From: Bradyrhizobium sp. 170
Lineage (GTDB): Bacteria; Pseudomonadota; Alphaproteobacteria; Rhizobiales; Xanthobacteraceae
DNA length: 64,000 nucleotides
Assembly (NCBI RefSeq): GCF_023101085.1
Contig: NZ_CP064703.1
Location: 5,208,001-5,272,000 of the forward strand
Direction of reading: 5' to 3'
The notes under the pieces were generated by a model that saw nothing but the letters and a program-made list of their open reading frames with translations, was not told the DNA's origin and searched no databases. Below, one piece after another: positions 7,521 to 13,646 of the stretch. Numbering within the stretch: position 1 is the stretch's first letter; the number at the start of each line of letters is the position of its first letter. The translations under genes were made by a program, and so were the position numbers.

Positions 7521-8201
7521 TTGAACATCTCACTCTACGGCATCTCGATCTGGATTCTCCCCCTCCTCATCGCCATCACCTTCCATGAGGCCGCGCACGC
7601 ATTTGTGGCATACAAGCTCGGCGACAATACCGCCTGGCAGCTTGGCCGGGTCAGCTTCAACCCTTTCAAGCATATCGATCCGTTCGGGACCGTGATTCTG
7701 CCGGGCGTGCTGCTGCTGGCGCACTCCCCGTTCCTGTTCGGCTACGCCAAGCCGGTCCCGGTGAATTTCCGGAACCTGAACAACCCGCGGCTCGACATGG
7801 TCTGGGTGGCGCTGGCCGGCCCCGTCACCAACATCATCCTGGCGACGATCGTGGCGTTTGCCTTCCATGCCCTGCCTTTGGTGCCGGCGGACGCCGCCAA
7901 ATGGACGGCGGACAACCTCAAAAATGCTTTCCTGATCAATATCGTGCTGGCGATCTTCAACATGATGCCGATCCCGCCGCTGGACGGCGGCCGGGTCGCC
8001 GTTGGGCTGCTGCCGCAGGTGCTGGCTTACCCGCTGTCGCGGCTGGAACCCTACGGGATGCTGATCCTGCTCGGCCTTTTGATCCTGCTGCCCGTCATCG
8101 GCGCGCAGCTCGGCCTAAATCTTGATGTTATTTCGGCGATACTTCGGACACTGACCGGATATGTGATCAGCGCGCTTCTCTTCATCACCGGCAACGCTTA
8201 A
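7521..8201 (+). CDS. Site-2 protease (M50 family) membrane metalloprotease
   Basis: Intramembrane zinc protease of the compact S2P type with no PDZ domain; 226 residues is usual. HEAAH (residues 23-27) supplies two zinc ligands and the catalytic Glu, and NMMPIPPLDGGR carries the third ligand (Asp) in a later membrane segment. About six hydrophobic segments are visible. The start is TTG at 7521; no better ATG lies upstream and the first hydrophobic segment begins directly after it. Substrates are unknown; the family often cleaves membrane-bound regulators. Confidence 0.88.
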   Translation: MNISLYGISIWILPLLIAITFHEAAHAFVAYKLGDNTAWQLGRVSFNPFKHIDPFGTVILPGVLLLAHSPFLFGYAKPVPVNFRNLNNPRLDMVWVALAGPVTNIILATIVAFAFHALPLVPADAAKWTADNLKNAFLINIVLAIFNMMPIPPLDGGRVAVGLLPQVLAYPLSRLEPYGMLILLGLLILLPVIGAQLGLNLDVISAILRTLTGYVISALLFITGNA

Positions 8202-8833: not shown

Positions 8834-9165
8834 GCATGTCCGAACACAAAATATCGAAAACAACCCCATGCACAGTAGAGACGGGCTTGAATTCGCGGCA
8901 CTTTTCGCCGCCGCGTGACCCAGTCACGAACTGCTCAGCCACCGCGGCAGAAACCGATCTCAACCCTGCTCTCGTTCAGGCACCTTGCGGGCCACGCAGT
9001 TGGAGCCGACCGTTGCGGGCGCTGACTGCTATCGGGATACTTCGTCAACTTGGTTTTCGTCCCTAAGAAACCCAACCGGGTCAAGCGCTCGCGTCCGCTC
9101 TCGACCAGGAGGCAGCCGTTGACCGCAGCTTGCGCGATGTGCGCTGAGTCAACGTCATCGTGTTG
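8834..9165. other. Gene-free stretch between convergent units
   Basis: Between the terminator at 8803-8833 and the end of the kinase gene. Only short overlapping open frames without recognisable protein features are present. No repeat or RNA gene was seen. Confidence 0.5.
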
Positions 9166-10491
9166 TCAGCTCGAAAATTCGAGACGCGCTTCCAATCCGC
9201 CGCCGTCGCGATTGGCGAGCGTGAGTGTGCCGCGAAGCGCGCTGACAAGTTGCTGGGCGATGGCAAGGCCAAGCCCGGTGCCGCCGGTTTCGCGATTGCG
9301 CGAAGCTTCCACCCGATAGAACGGCAGGAATACCGACTTCAGATGCTCCTCGGGAATACCGGGTCCGCGGTCCGATACGGTGATCGTGATGCGGTTCGAC
9401 CGTTGCACATCGACGGCGACTGCGACATCTTCGCCGAATTTCAGCCCGTTATCGATCAGGTTGATCATGATGCGGCGCAAGGCCTGCGGGTGCGTGAGAA
9501 TCGTCACCCCGCGTTCTCCGGAAAATCGAAGGGATTCTCCGGCGTCGGAATAGTCGCAGACGATGCTGTCGATAAGCGCATGCAGGTCGGTCTGGCACCG
9601 CTGCTTGGCGATCTCGTCGCGTCCGCGGGCCAGGGCAAGACCCTGCTTGACGAGCGTCTGCATTTCCTGCAGGTCGCCCTGCAGCTTTTCCCTGGCGTCG
9701 CTGTCACCAAGGAAATCAGCGCGCAGCCGCATGCGCGTGATCGGAGTCTGAAGGCGGCGCGAGATTCCCGCCAGAATCTGGATCCGTTCCACAGCCTGCT
9801 CGGCAATGCGCCGCTGCATGGCGTTGAACGCGGTCGCGGCGCGCGCCACTTCCTTCGGACCATCCTCCGGGAGCGGCTCACGCCGCAGATCCGAACCCAG
9901 GCTGTTGGCCGCGCGCTCGAGGCGCGCCAACGGTCGCGTCGCGAGCTTCACGGCAATCCAGGTGAAGAAGGCGAGAAAACAGAGTTGAACCGCGAGCGCC
10001 GCGGGTAGCCAGAGCGACATGACCCTCCTCTGCGCGAGGTATTCCATCGTCAACGGACTGCCGTCCTTGAGGTGAATGAGCATGCCTCGTTTCGATCGCG
10101 TCGGCGGATCGAAGTAGACATAGTTCACGTCGTGGTCGGCCCCAAGCTCGGCCCTGAGGCCCGCCAAAAACAGTTCCCCTCGACGTCTGAGCGGCGCATA
10201 TACCTCGCCGCCGCCTTTGAGAACGTACCGATATGTAGGTCGAGCGAGGCGCTCCAGCCATGCGGGTCTTTCTTCGGGCTTGACCCGGTCGAGGATAGCG
10301 ACCTCCGTCGCGACGGCCCTCATGAAATAGTCATCCGATAACTCGTTGGAGGGGCCGAATACATTGAGGGCGACCAGACCAAAGGACAGCAGATGCGCAG
10401 CCAGCAGACCGGCGAACAGGATGATCGCCAGCCGGCGGAACAGTGAGTCCGGCCAAAGACGCGCCGCCATACGTCGAAGCTGGGCGCTCAT
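9166..10491 (-). CDS. Sensor histidine kinase paralogue HK1, full length but with the phospho-acceptor His replaced by Arg
   Basis: EnvZ-like membrane sensor, 441 residues. Order: first membrane segment (about 19-43), periplasmic domain with FDPP and HLKDGSP, second segment (about 158-182), HAMP, dimerisation helix, ATPase domain. The ATPase domain is intact: N box NLIDNGLKF (344-352), G1 DRGPGIP (374-380), G2 GGTGLGLA (403-410). The H box reads ISRRLQTPITR; the residue that should be His is R245 (codon 9757-9759), and the following Asp is also Arg. It therefore cannot accept phosphate in the normal way. Its ATG overlaps the stop of the preceding paralogue as ATGA, so translation is probably coupled. 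Confidence 0.92.
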   Translation of the reverse strand: MSAQLRRMAARLWPDSLFRRLAIILFAGLLAAHLLSFGLVALNVFGPSNELSDDYFMRAVATEVAILDRVKPEERPAWLERLARPTYRYVLKGGGEVYAPLRRRGELFLAGLRAELGADHDVNYVYFDPPTRSKRGMLIHLKDGSPLTMEYLAQRRVMSLWLPAALAVQLCFLAFFTWIAVKLATRPLARLERAANSLGSDLRREPLPEDGPKEVARAATAFNAMQRRIAEQAVERIQILAGISRRLQTPITRMRLRADFLGDSDAREKLQGDLQEMQTLVKQGLALARGRDEIAKQRCQTDLHALIDSIVCDYSDAGESLRFSGERGVTILTHPQALRRIMINLIDNGLKFGEDVAVAVDVQRSNRITITVSDRGPGIPEEHLKSVFLPFYRVEASRNRETGGTGLGLAIAQQLVSALRGTLTLANRDGGGLEARLEFSS

Positions 10492-11420
10492 GACGGCTCC
10501 CGCGATGCTTCGACGGCGACATGCGTGGTGTCCGACGGGACAATGTCGTACTCTCGCGCCAGGGCAAGCCCCTGCTTGACGAGCGTCTGCATTTCCTGCA
10601 GGTCGCCCTGCAGCTTTTCCCTGGCGTCGCTGTCGCCCAGGAAATCAGCGCGCAGCCGCATCCGCGTGATCGGGGTCTGAAGATCGTGCGAGATCGCCGC
10701 CAGAATCTGGATTCGTTCCGCGACCTGCTCGGCAATGCGTCGCTGCATGGCGTTGAGCGCGGCAGCGGCGCGCGCCACTTCCTTCGGACCATCCTCCGGG
10801 AGCGGCTCGCCGCGCAAATCCGAGCCCAGGCCGTTGGCCGCGCGCTCGAGGCGCGCCAGCGGTTGCGTCGCGAGCTTTACGGCAACCCAGACGAAGAATG
10901 CGATGATACAGAGTTGAACGGCGAGCGCCGCCGGCAACCACGGCGAAATGATTTCCTTCGGCGGAAAGACCGCGATCGTCACGGGGCTACCGTCCTTCAG
11001 GTGCATGCGTATGCCCCGTCGCAGTCGCTGCGGTGGATCAAAGTGGACAAAATTCGCGTCGTGGTCGGGCCCCAGCGCGGCCCGCAAACGCGCGATGTTC
11101 GCTTGCCGTCGTTTGGGTGTCTCCGCTTCTAGCTCTCCCTCGCCGCTGAGAATGTATCGCCAATGGCGTCGAGAGAGGCGGTCGAGCCAGGCGGGTCTTT
11201 CTTCAGGCTTGAGGTAGTCGAGGAAAGCGACCGCTTCCGCGATGTCCACGGCAGCATATTTACTCCCCAGCTCGTCTTCGATAGCGATGCGGTCGAGGGC
11301 AATCAAAACGAAGGCCAGCACATGAGCCGCCACAAGGCCGGAAAACAGGATGATCGCCAGCCGACCGAACAGGGAGTCCGGCCAAAGACGCGCCGCCATG
11401 GGCCGAAAACGAGCGCTCAT
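10488..11420 (-). CDS. Sensor histidine kinase paralogue HK2, keeps the H-box His but lacks the whole ATPase domain
   Basis: 310 residues from the ATG at 11420, which overlaps the regulator's stop as ATGA; the longer open frame upstream is only the regulator's shadow. It aligns without gaps with HK1 over residues 1-289: same membrane segments, FDPP and HLKDGSP periplasmic motifs and HAMP. Here the H box is canonical, ISHDLQTPITR with H245 (codon 10686-10688). After QGLALARE the homology stops; a 20-residue tail with no kinase motif follows and then the stop. N, G1 and G2 boxes are absent, so it cannot bind ATP itself. The end is a clean stop at the coupled start of HK1, not a frameshift. Confidence 0.92.
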   Translation of the reverse strand: MSARFRPMAARLWPDSLFGRLAIILFSGLVAAHVLAFVLIALDRIAIEDELGSKYAAVDIAEAVAFLDYLKPEERPAWLDRLSRRHWRYILSGEGELEAETPKRRQANIARLRAALGPDHDANFVHFDPPQRLRRGIRMHLKDGSPVTIAVFPPKEIISPWLPAALAVQLCIIAFFVWVAVKLATQPLARLERAANGLGSDLRGEPLPEDGPKEVARAAAALNAMQRRIAEQVAERIQILAAISHDLQTPITRMRLRADFLGDSDAREKLQGDLQEMQTLVKQGLALAREYDIVPSDTTHVAVEASREPS

Positions 11421-12157
11421 GTCGGCCCCTGCAATGCCTCGACGGCGGCTGTAAAGACGTAGCCTTCGCTGCGCACCGTCTTGATGTAGGACGGCTCCCG
11501 GGCGTCTTCGCGCAATCGCTGGCGAAGGCGGCTGACAAGAAGGTCTATCGACCGGTCGAACACTTCGGCCTCGCGGCCTTGCGTCAGGTCGAGCAGTTGG
11601 TCGCGATTGAGGACATGTTGGGGGTGATCGAGAAACACGCGCAACAGTCGATACTCGGCGCCGCTCAACGAGACCACGGTCTCGTGGGCGTCGACCAGGC
11701 AACGCCCGGCCGTGTCGAGCTTCCATTCGCCAAACCGAAAGAGCCGGGCTTTCTCCGATGCCGCAAGGTTGCGGGGCAGCATCTCAGCCCTGCGCAACAC
11801 CGAGCGGATTCGTGCGAGCAGCTCGCGCGGGGCAAACGGCTTCGTGAGGTAGTCGTCCGCCCCCATCTCCAGGCCGACGATGCGGTCTGCTTCATCGCCC
11901 CGCGCCGTCAGCATCAGGATCGGAATGTCATAGGGTTGATTCGCGCGCAAGTTGCGGCAGAGCGTAAGGCCGTCGTCCCCCGGCAGCATGAGGTCGAGTA
12001 CGATCAGATCGATCCGGTGGTTGGCGAGAACCTCGCGCATCTGCCGGCCGTTGGCCACCGTCGTGACCCGATAGCCGTTGCCGACAAAGTATCGGTCCAG
12101 CAGTTCGCGCAAACCCAGGTCATCGTCGACGACGAGAATATGGTCCGGCTTCTCCAT
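11417..12157 (-). CDS. OmpR-family response regulator
   Basis: 246 residues. Receiver domain with DDD near residues 11-13, phospho-acceptor D55 (IVLDLMLPG), Thr in LMLTARG and Lys in YLTKPF; then a winged-helix DNA-binding domain (EYRLLRVFLDHPQHVLNRDQL...RSIDLLVSRLRQRL...IKTVRSEGYVF). The start at 12157 (MEKPDHILVVDDD) puts the receiver at the N-terminus; the open frame reaches 12292 without family-like sequence. First gene of a three-gene operon with HK2 and HK1, all joined by ATGA overlaps. Divergent from the six-cysteine protein genes, which are plausible targets. Confidence 0.93.
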   Translation of the reverse strand: MEKPDHILVVDDDLGLRELLDRYFVGNGYRVTTVANGRQMREVLANHRIDLIVLDLMLPGDDGLTLCRNLRANQPYDIPILMLTARGDEADRIVGLEMGADDYLTKPFAPRELLARIRSVLRRAEMLPRNLAASEKARLFRFGEWKLDTAGRCLVDAHETVVSLSGAEYRLLRVFLDHPQHVLNRDQLLDLTQGREAEVFDRSIDLLVSRLRQRLREDAREPSYIKTVRSEGYVFTAAVEALQGPT

Positions 12158-12210
12158 ACACGCCAGAGTATCCAACCGCCGCGGCAAGTGACATCCCATT
12201 TTGTAACGTA

Positions 12211-12279
12211 ATGTATCGTCCTGCCGGCCCGACATAGAAAATTTCAAAACCGGCACAGGCGGAAATTCGCAGGATACAT
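12211..12279. promoter_or_regulatory. Inverted half-sites in the divergent regulator/secreted-protein intergenic region
   Basis: ATGTATCGTCCTGC at 12211-12224 and GCAGGATACAT at 12269-12279 are near inverted copies about 50 bases apart, in the only gap between the response-regulator gene and the first six-cysteine protein gene. Widely spaced inverted half-sites could bind a regulator dimer by looping, but the match is short. Confidence 0.3.
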
Positions 12280-12349: not shown

Positions 12350-12441
12350 CCGGGGACGGCGTTTATTTCCGGATTTGGGAGAACGAGTCATGAGAATGTC
12401 ATCAAGCCTTGTCGCGCCCTCAGCTGTCGCGATCCTGTCAA
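12350..12441 (+). repeat. Tandem duplication unit, copy A (leader, RBS and signal-peptide start)
   Basis: From CCGGGGACGGC through TTTATTTCCGGATTTGG, the ribosome-binding sequence and the first codons, this segment is almost identical to 13034-13125, with only scattered single-base differences. It shows that the two downstream genes arose by duplication that included the 5' untranslated region. Confidence 0.8.
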
Positions 12442-12944
12442 CTTCGTTATTGTGCGGCCTAAGCGGCACGGCAGCCTCGCAAACCACGCCAAGCTCCACT
12501 CTTCCCAGCGTCACGGTCACGGCGCCTGAGCAAAGGGCGAGGCCGCCACAGAGGCAGGAGCGGGCGGCAAACACCGGTGCAGGTCTCCGGAGAGGGCTGG
12601 CCACCCGGACGACGGCTCAAACAGCGGGAGCGACGCCGTCGGTTGCGCGGGGGCCTGTCATGGCGAAGCTTGGCCGGCTCGAGAGAGAGGCCAGCAGTTG
12701 CAACGATGGTTGCGAATCAAGCTTCAAACGCGGCAAGGACCCTTGGGTTGGATGCAGCGAATCGGCGGGATACTTCTCAGTTTTCTCAGCAACCTGCAAA
12801 GACACACTCACTCACAGGGACTACGTGCAATGCGTAGAAACCAAAATGTTCCTGGGCTGGGACCGACAACGAGTCTGGTGGTATTGCACCGGCATGCTGG
12901 CTGGGGGGAAATTTCGGGTCACCGCAGAGAATCGAAACAGGTAG
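12390..12944 (+). CDS. Six-cysteine secreted protein, copy A
   Basis: 184 residues; function not recognised. The ATG at 12390 follows a GGGAGAACGAG ribosome-binding sequence. Signal peptide to about residue 30 (MRMSSSLVAPSAVAILS... GTAASQ), then LPSVTVTAPE, a low-complexity Arg/Ala/Thr/Pro linker, and a C-terminal domain with six cysteines spaced C-x3-C-x13-C-x13-C-x11-C-x17-C ending in WWYC. The spacing suggests three disulfides in a small periplasmic or extracellular domain. A near paralogue follows. The pair is divergent from the OmpR-type regulator and may belong to its regulon. Confidence 0.8.
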   Translation: MRMSSSLVAPSAVAILSTSLLCGLSGTAASQTTPSSTLPSVTVTAPEQRARPPQRQERAANTGAGLRRGLATRTTAQTAGATPSVARGPVMAKLGRLEREASSCNDGCESSFKRGKDPWVGCSESAGYFSVFSATCKDTLTHRDYVQCVETKMFLGWDRQRVWWYCTGMLAGGKFRVTAENRNR

Positions 12945-13033: not shown

Positions 13034-13125
13034 CCGGGGACGGCATTTATTTCCGGATTTGGGAGAACGAGTTATGAGAATGTCATCGAGCCTTGTCGCG
13101 CCCTCAGCTGTCGCTGTTCTGTCAA
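13034..13125 (+). repeat. Tandem duplication unit, copy B (leader, RBS and signal-peptide start)
   Basis: Second copy of the segment at 12350-12441, again ending in the signal-peptide codons of a six-cysteine protein gene. The coding parts diverge quickly after the signal peptide. Confidence 0.8.
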
Positions 13126-13646
13126 CCGCATTGCTGAGCGGCACGGCAGCCTCGCAAACCGCAACAGGCCCCACCAACCAGCTTCCCAGCATCACGGTCC
13201 AGGCGCCGAAGCAGGTGGCAAGGCCGGTGGCAAGACCACAGAGGCAGGCGCCGCCGGTGGCAAACACGATTGCAGCTCGCCCGACCTCGCCAGCCCCTCA
13301 AACCCCACCGACAACCGCTCAAAAGCCGGCGCCCGGTTCAGTGATGGCGAGGATTGCCGCGCTTGAGAAGACCTCCAGCAATTGCACCGACGGTTGCCAA
13401 ACAAGCTTCAAATACGGCAATCAACCGTGGAACGGATGCTCCACGTCGTCCGGGGATTTTACTTTATCGACAACGTGCAGAAACGGACGCAACTACAAAA
13501 CCTACCAGGAGTGCAGGGAGACCGGAATGTTTTTGGCCTGGAGACAATATGAGGTCTGGTGGTATTGCAGCAGCCTGCACGCCGCGGGCAAGCTTTCCGG
13601 GGAGAAGCTTCAGGTCGCCGAACTCAAGCGATCAGGACGTCGCTAG
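13074..13646 (+). CDS. Six-cysteine secreted protein, copy B
   Basis: 190 residues, paralogue of the preceding gene. Same signal peptide (MRMSSSLVAPSAVAVLS) and LPSITVQAP motif, a longer Pro/Ala/Thr linker, and a C-terminal domain with C-x3-C-x13-C-x12-C-x11-C-x17-C ending WWYC. Shared residues around the cysteines include DGC, SFK, PW.GC, MFL.W and VWWYC, while the linker has diverged freely, as expected if only the cysteine domain is under selection. No enzyme or adhesion motif was recognised. Confidence 0.8.
   Translation: MRMSSSLVAPSAVAVLSTALLSGTAASQTATGPTNQLPSITVQAPKQVARPVARPQRQAPPVANTIAARPTSPAPQTPPTTAQKPAPGSVMARIAALEKTSSNCTDGCQTSFKYGNQPWNGCSTSSGDFTLSTTCRNGRNYKTYQECRETGMFLAWRQYEVWWYCSSLHAAGKLSGEKLQVAELKRSGRR

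Follow-up and report, generated by a model that had tools for sequence, protein, structure and literature searches.

A putative naturally split, EnvZ-like sensor histidine kinase encoded by a conserved gene pair in Bradyrhizobium

In the 64,000-nucleotide stretch of Bradyrhizobium sp. 170 analyzed here (contig NZ_CP064703.1, positions 5,208,001 to 5,272,000; hereafter the window), which is part of a 9.2-Mb one-contig genome, two adjacent genes on the minus strand, termed HK2 (10488..11420) and HK1 (9166..10491), encode paralogous membrane sensor histidine kinases with complementary losses, and both follow the gene of an OmpR-type response regulator. We consider it likely that they constitute a naturally split, EnvZ-like membrane sensor histidine kinase of duplication origin, in which an HK1-HK2 heterodimer would transfer phosphate in trans and the homodimers would act as phosphatases. 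The original prediction, made from the letters of the window, had read the two genes as a split pair that could work as a heterodimer. This reading was supported by the present analysis, while heterodimerization and trans phosphate transfer are what we infer from sequence.

Results

Architecture of the regulator-HK2-HK1 module

The first gene of the module (11417..12157, minus strand) encodes a regulator of 246 amino acids with Response_reg (9.8e-32) and Trans_reg_C (6.7e-21) domains, both scored on the protein from its second codon, and its VVDDD, LDLMLPGDDG, MLTARG and TKPF motifs presumably hold the key residues of the receiver. Its score of 272.4 bits against the OmpR equivalog NF007005 stayed below the cut-off of 331 bits, and it was thus classified as OmpR-like. 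Likewise, EnvZ was the best NCBIfam relative of both kinases, which did not reach the 415-bit cut-off of the EnvZ equivalog NF007004 (184.7 bits for HK1, 75.4 bits for HK2) and were thus regarded as EnvZ-like, not as EnvZ.

HK2 is a protein of 310 amino acids with a membrane sensor, a HAMP domain and a HisKA/DHp domain (30.3 bits), for which any HATPase match was absent from the Pfam search; its H box reads SHDLQTP, with His245-Asp246 encoded by CAC GAT (10683..10688). HK1, with 441 amino acids, comprises a membrane sensor, HAMP, a degenerate DHp domain scoring below the HisKA cut-off (22.7 versus 26.9 bits) and an intact HATPase_c domain (1.9e-24; residues 335-439, 9175..9489) with N, G1 and G2 boxes. 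Its H box reads SRRLQTP, Arg245-Arg246 being encoded by CGC CGC (9754..9759). Codon reading and the Pfam searches thus bore out the predicted defects of both proteins, and no internal stops were found on translation of either frame. The predicted gap-free alignment over residues 1-289 was also recovered, with 202 of 289 residues identical, from 87/160 in the sensor to 53/58 in residues 232-289. Among the 54 HisKA matches of the genome, HK2 was the sole one without a same-strand HATPase match starting within 700 bases downstream.

Both junctions of the module, regulator/HK2 and HK2/HK1, are ATGA overlaps. The earlier claim that such overlaps join both kinases to the regulator is correct for the two junctions and incorrect for HK1, which overlaps HK2 and not the regulator. 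The HK2/HK1 overlap amounted to four bases at nine of the ten loci described below and to one base at the remaining locus.

CheA-class kinases are built from a P1 Hpt domain and P3-P5. The Pfam models found in HK1 and HK2 were limited to HAMP, HisKA and HATPase, which places them outside this class, and the location of the ATP-binding domain on HK1 and of the phosphoacceptor His on HK2 is that of a split kinase. As for the prediction that neither protein is autonomous, it is well founded for HK2, which lacks the ATPase domain; for HK1 it depends on the lost His together with HisKA mutant data (PMC3510030).

Distribution and pairwise conservation

HK1 was used to query 265 genomes of the genus at E <= 1e-70, with scoring limited to the six best first-look candidates of each genome. 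Matches were found in 9 of the 265, all with the regulator-HK2-HK1 order, and no HK1- or HK2-like match at this threshold occurred in any genome lacking the pair among the best six candidates of each. The nine genomes hold ten pair-bearing loci, since one genome carries two loci approximately 11 kb apart. In that genome, L058 (presumed B. roseum), both modules are complete, and each has genes of the small-protein family described below. HK2 retained His-Asp at 10/10 loci and HK1 showed Arg-Arg at 9/10, the exception being the His-Arg of B. jicamae, and the frames of the pair were open at all ten. The predicted pairing of H245 in one gene with R245 in the other thus recurred within the same gene order.

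Of the 80 loci retained by a pattern-based scan of GTDB species genomes, six were 81-89% identical and the other 74 at most 48%. Of 397 genomes of the order, 88 contained matches at E <= 1e-55, and identities above 47% were confined to the genome of the window and one other pair-bearing genome. The nearest single kinases were 41-47% identical, one of them sitting elsewhere in a pair-bearing genome, and close relatives with a single normal kinase and randomly decaying copies of both genes, which had been named as evidence against the prediction, were not encountered. SHDLQTP was read at 11/11 of the closest order-level single-kinase loci, as well as in the second kinase carried by the pair-bearing genome G030, and 17 of 30 single-kinase relative loci had a readable kinase (none by pattern in the other 13), with His-Asp in 17/17.

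Protein database searches were evaluated over the best 120 of 1640 and the best 120 of 6142 matches and thus lean to close relatives; the counts are of distinct proteins, that of the window included. Among these best matches, His-Asp was found in 118/119 HK2-type proteins, whose phosphatase motif (HE/DxxN/T kept) read HDLQT in 117/119, with one HDLQS and one RRLQT, and Arg-Arg was found in 114/121 long proteins. Furthermore, N348, D374, G378, G404, G406 and G408 of HK1 were invariant in 123/123 aligned rows, and position 249 was Thr in 69 and Asn in 54 of them.

Selection on the two kinase genes

The ratio of nonsynonymous to synonymous substitution rates (dN/dS) was estimated between loci, with B. 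jicamae left out for HK2 and, in the analysis by region, pairs with a synonymous rate (dS) of at most 0.05 left out. Median values were 0.30 for HK2 (35/36 pairs), 0.30 for HK1 (44/45 pairs) and 0.145 for the regulator (44/45 pairs). The DHp domains gave 0.059 in HK2 and 0.096 in HK1, the ATPase domain of HK1 0.20, the sensors 0.36 and 0.44, and the HK2 tail of approximately 19 codons 0.90 (range 0.25-3.7). Both kinase genes are hence under purifying selection, except for the HK2 tail. In addition, the Arg codons of HK1 occur as either CGC or CGT, neither of which can be derived from the Asp codon GAT by fewer than two changes. The relaxed selection and scattered lesions of a pseudogene pair were not observed; judged by its sequences, the pair is a maintained design and not a decaying one.

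Residues separating HK1 from HK2

Across residues 161-295, with the proteins P0084, P0041, P0081 and P0123 left out of the comparison, near-complete separation of HK1 from HK2 was seen only at positions 172, 173 and 177, which by our own reading lie in the membrane helix, at 242, 245 and 246 in the H box, and at 290, 291 and 293 at the end of DHp. Because only these nine positions separate the two proteins, their dimerization and regulator-binding surfaces appear to be nearly common. HK1 has lost both kinase residues, the His and the acid following it, while keeping the phosphatase residue Thr/Asn249. In HisKA mutants, the acidic residue after the His is needed only for kinase activity and the Thr/Asn only for phosphatase activity, and the DHp domain of EnvZ or NtrB suffices for phosphatase activity, with the CA domain greatly helping (PMC3510030).

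Origin and divergence of the two copies

The C-terminal tail and stop of HK2 (10488..10523, minus strand) appear to have been copied from the 3' end of the regulator gene (11417..11452, minus strand) and to have diverged since; this end is the likely source of both the tail and the copied ATGA junction. The 33 coding bases of the HK2 tail and the last 33 of the regulator shared 24 bases, as compared with at most 19 in any of 288 control windows. Over the last 11 codons, 22-27 of 33 bases agreed at nine of the ten loci (control maxima 16-20). The tenth locus, in G030, gave 15/33 with a control maximum of 17; here HK2 stops one codon earlier, and the registers consequently differ. On account of this resemblance, we infer a single tandem duplication covering the 3' end of the regulator and kinase codons 1 to approximately 292, an event that probably accounts in one step for the truncation of HK2, its new stop and the second overlap. 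In this scenario, the upstream copy would be the truncated one, borrowing its stop and overlap, and HK1 would derive from the downstream copy, which has the ATPase domain and would later have lost His245 and Asp246. In a full-length tree, HK2 sequences formed one group (support 0.996) with the ten HK1 sequences outside it.

Continuing gene conversion between the two genes was also tested, on nine loci with B. jicamae left out, and was not seen, since HK1-HK2 identity in the DHp domain was the same within loci (0.869) as between loci (0.864). Older conversion may nevertheless have occurred, as the dS between the paralogues was 0.27 in residues 161-231, below the 0.44 of residues 61-160.

Upstream region, divergent small-protein genes and other features

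Upstream of the regulator, a candidate operator, GATACATTACGTTACAAA (12200..12217, minus strand), was matched at 10/10 loci with slight differences and had a single match in the 9.2-Mb genome at up to 2 mismatches. The match to GATACATTAYGTTACAAA, which likewise varies little, lies in a conserved block present at all ten loci, two of which hold a second copy; at up to 2 mismatches the motif occurs once in the genome of the window, and its small-protein genes have no second copy. The near-repeat GATACATTAC/GTTACAAAAT at 12200-12217 is a candidate tandem operator; it occurs once in the genome and is matched upstream of the regulator at all ten loci. At L056 (presumed Bradyrhizobium sp. SRL28) and L057 (presumed B. 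lablabi), a second operator-like copy was observed farther upstream, some 700 to 900 bases from the first, and the regulator start region of L056 shows one-base gaps relative to the other loci. A scan for sigma-70-type promoters found none.

Divergent from the regulator lie genes for a small Cys-containing protein with, by our own reading, a signal-peptide-like start (12390..12944, plus strand), a possible target of the regulator, and for a second paralogue in tandem (13074..13646, plus strand); the proteins of this family are probably exported. Searches of Pfam and NCBIfam gave no match for the former, and for the latter no Pfam match and one chance-level NCBIfam match (E 0.24). One to three divergent genes of this family stand just upstream of the regulator in each module, in 9/9 genomes; apart from the regulator and kinases, no other real neighbor family common to all nine was found, and some genome pairs share flanking genes, as the gene starts indicate for either side of the module in the window and G138. 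The family as a whole occurs in 126/265 genomes of the genus, 117 of which are without the kinases. A single-kinase form of this neighborhood was looked for through the small-protein family: at five loci with relatives of 55-81% identity, all in genomes lacking the pair, no regulator or kinase was detected nearby (tblastn, E 1e-4), three of the five stretches being cut by contig ends. Autoregulation is suggested, as is control of the divergent small-protein genes.

Elsewhere in the window, the long plus-strand open reading frames at 9160-10008 and 10521-11132 lie opposite the kinases and were taken as by-products of GC-rich coding sequence. Another open reading frame (7521-8201, plus strand) encodes a hydrophobic protein with a HEAAH motif, reminiscent of site-2 proteases.

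Discussion

Proposed mechanism

Since the half-kinases are kept together as a pair, HK1 and HK2 probably work as a mixed dimer. They would associate through their common DHp dimer surface, upon which the ATPase domain of HK1 would bind ATP and phosphorylate His245 of HK2 in trans. From HK2 the phosphate would then go to the OmpR-type regulator, whose probable site of action is the promoter region separating its own gene from the divergently transcribed small-protein genes. Because both proteins keep Thr/Asn249, HK1 homodimers, and perhaps HK2 homodimers, would be capable only of dephosphorylating the regulator, so that kinase output would be set by the amount of heterodimer and by the signals of two different sensor domains. 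In vitro, G2-box and H243A mutants of EnvZ complement each other as heterodimers (PMC4734776), in line with the proposed assembly.

It is also conceivable, with a probability that we place somewhat short of even, that the Arg pair of HK1 is itself a selected feature: it would render HK1 homodimers kinase-dead, and the Thr/Asn would make them phosphatases, set against an obligate kinase heterodimer in a switch governed by the ratio of the two proteins and the signals of both sensors.

Evidence against the split-kinase reading and alternative explanations

Several observations weigh against the split-kinase reading. Seven of the 121 distinct long proteins deviate from Arg-Arg, with three His-Arg, three His-Asp and one Gln-Arg. 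Two of the three long His-Asp proteins, P0041 and P0081, are HK2-like to about residue 280 and HK1-like thereafter; these full-length proteins, with both His-Asp and an ATPase domain, have the look of a rejoined full kinase. The third, P0148, resembles HK1 but has the H box type of HK2; conversely, the short protein P0084 carries the Arg-Arg H box. These four mosaics may be natural recombinants or assembly chimeras. At the B. jicamae locus (L062, presumably strain PAC68), HK1 reads His-Arg and HK2 has an in-frame deletion of approximately 53 residues around HAMP, and for these reasons the paired design is not universal. In the trees, this HK1 falls within the Arg-Arg sequences, and its His245 is encoded by its own codon CAT, where HK2 has CAC, so the His looks derived; the protein is still predicted to be kinase-poor because Arg246 stays. 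Compensation by His245 for the damaged HK2 was considered and not counted as proof. Decay could be confined to the B. jicamae copy. With regard to origin, the single-event scenario draws on a similarity of 33 bases and on a tree in which the outgroup attaches within HK1 (0.923), so that its root is not settled. Mechanistically, a DHp loop imposing cis phosphorylation would leave the heterodimer inactive. Finally, in Corynebacterium, a laboratory-evolved ChrS whose CA domain does not work is active independently of its own His, and a ChrS-HrrS heterodimer was not detected (PMC9491836).

The best-surviving rival, which we regard as unlikely, is that HK1 serves as a phosphatase-only or allosteric pseudokinase and that HK2 or the regulator receives phosphate from another cell kinase or from acetyl phosphate, the pair tuning a signal instead of forming a split kinase. 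The retention of Thr/Asn249 by HK1 despite the loss of both kinase residues fits this view, as do the behavior of ChrS just mentioned (PMC9491836), the ability of an ATPase domain to serve phosphatase activity as well, and the presence in the genome of many other HisKA kinases, the nearest of which outside the pair is 39% identical over residues 122-435. Against it stand the purifying selection on the ATPase domain of HK1 and its invariant ATP-binding residues, as well as the His-Asp that HK2 keeps at every locus; moreover, a distant partner kinase is not needed, since the next gene makes one.

Still less probable is a complex in which transfer takes place outside a DHp heterodimer, with HK1 homodimers acting on HK2 homodimers in the manner of CheA4 on CheA3. 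Homodimers would be possible, as the full dimer surface is kept in both proteins, and a dynamic CheA3-CheA4 interaction is described in a chemotaxis cluster (PMC3591291); yet the DHp and HAMP parts of HK1 and HK2 are near-identical, for which reason co-made subunits would form heterodimers about as readily as homodimers. Independent degeneration of the two copies of a duplicated kinase, to which the loss in each copy, the few exceptions and the single HAMP deletion might point, is hardly credible, and the database residue counts and dN/dS led us to reject it for the pair taken together, given the same losses at nine of ten loci with all frames open, the same pattern in most of the 240 distinct proteins (best matches and window) and low dN/dS everywhere except the HK2 tail.

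Comparison with known systems

Among known two-component systems, Mycobacterium tuberculosis Rv0601c/Rv0600c with TcrA likewise comprises two kinase halves, with separate acceptor and ATP-binding proteins and one OmpR-type regulator; compared by description, it differs from HK1/HK2 in being a kinase cut in two and not duplicated with complementary losses. Identity of the module with this mycobacterial system was considered and dropped, as the matching records are from Bradyrhizobium. Split kinases as such are already known from CheA3/CheA4 of Rhodobacter sphaeroides, and what is new here is the complementary-loss HisKA pair with two membrane sensors. As in the present pair, ATP-binding and phosphoacceptor functions reside on two proteins with a response-regulator output; CheA3 and CheA4 are each inactive alone, and the acceptor half is also a phosphatase (PMC3591291). 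They differ in belonging to the CheA (P1-P5) class, in that CheA3 lacks a dimerization or kinase domain, and in their location in a cytoplasmic cluster (PMC3591291), whereas HK1 and HK2 are both HisKA proteins with membrane sensors, HAMP and near-identical DHp domains. In a model of split kinases, inverse coupling of kinase and phosphatase activities gives switch-like behavior (PMC3591291). HK1/HK2 could show such coupling and, if so, the predicted switch would be testable in a compact system of three genes and two sensors and would offer a worked example for modular signaling design.

In RetS-GacS of Pseudomonas aeruginosa, two different membrane kinases also heterodimerize; there, unlike here, RetS inhibits GacS and GacS autophosphorylates by itself (PMC12189002). 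ChrS/HrrS of Corynebacterium glutamicum resembles the present case in that a kinase whose ATPase domain does not work acts beside a recently duplicated paralogue, and differs in its origin by laboratory evolution, the unused His of ChrS and the completeness of HrrS (PMC9491836). HisKA proteins without a HATPase domain have been counted, with no HisKA pair named in the introduction and discussion of that work (PMC3591291), and no natural HisKA pair that combines complementary losses with two full sensors surfaced in searches over open-licence PMC papers, outside which subscription papers mostly lie. HisKA is the most abundant histidine kinase class (PMC3510030). If correct, the split-kinase reading would thus supply a natural, conserved case of complementary-loss heterodimerization in ordinary HisKA-class membrane histidine kinases, and it suggests a one-step route by which tandem duplication yields a truncated copy with a ready stop and translational coupling, followed by mutual dependence.

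A further likeness is to complementation between EnvZ mutants, for which PMC4734776 refers to Yang and Inouye 1991. There too, one subunit lacks the His and the other lacks ATP binding, and the mixed dimers autophosphorylate in trans (PMC4734776). The EnvZ pairs were made in the laboratory from one gene, whereas the defects of HK1 and HK2 are fixed in two natural genes, and the Bradyrhizobium pair might represent a natural fixed form of this classic complementation.

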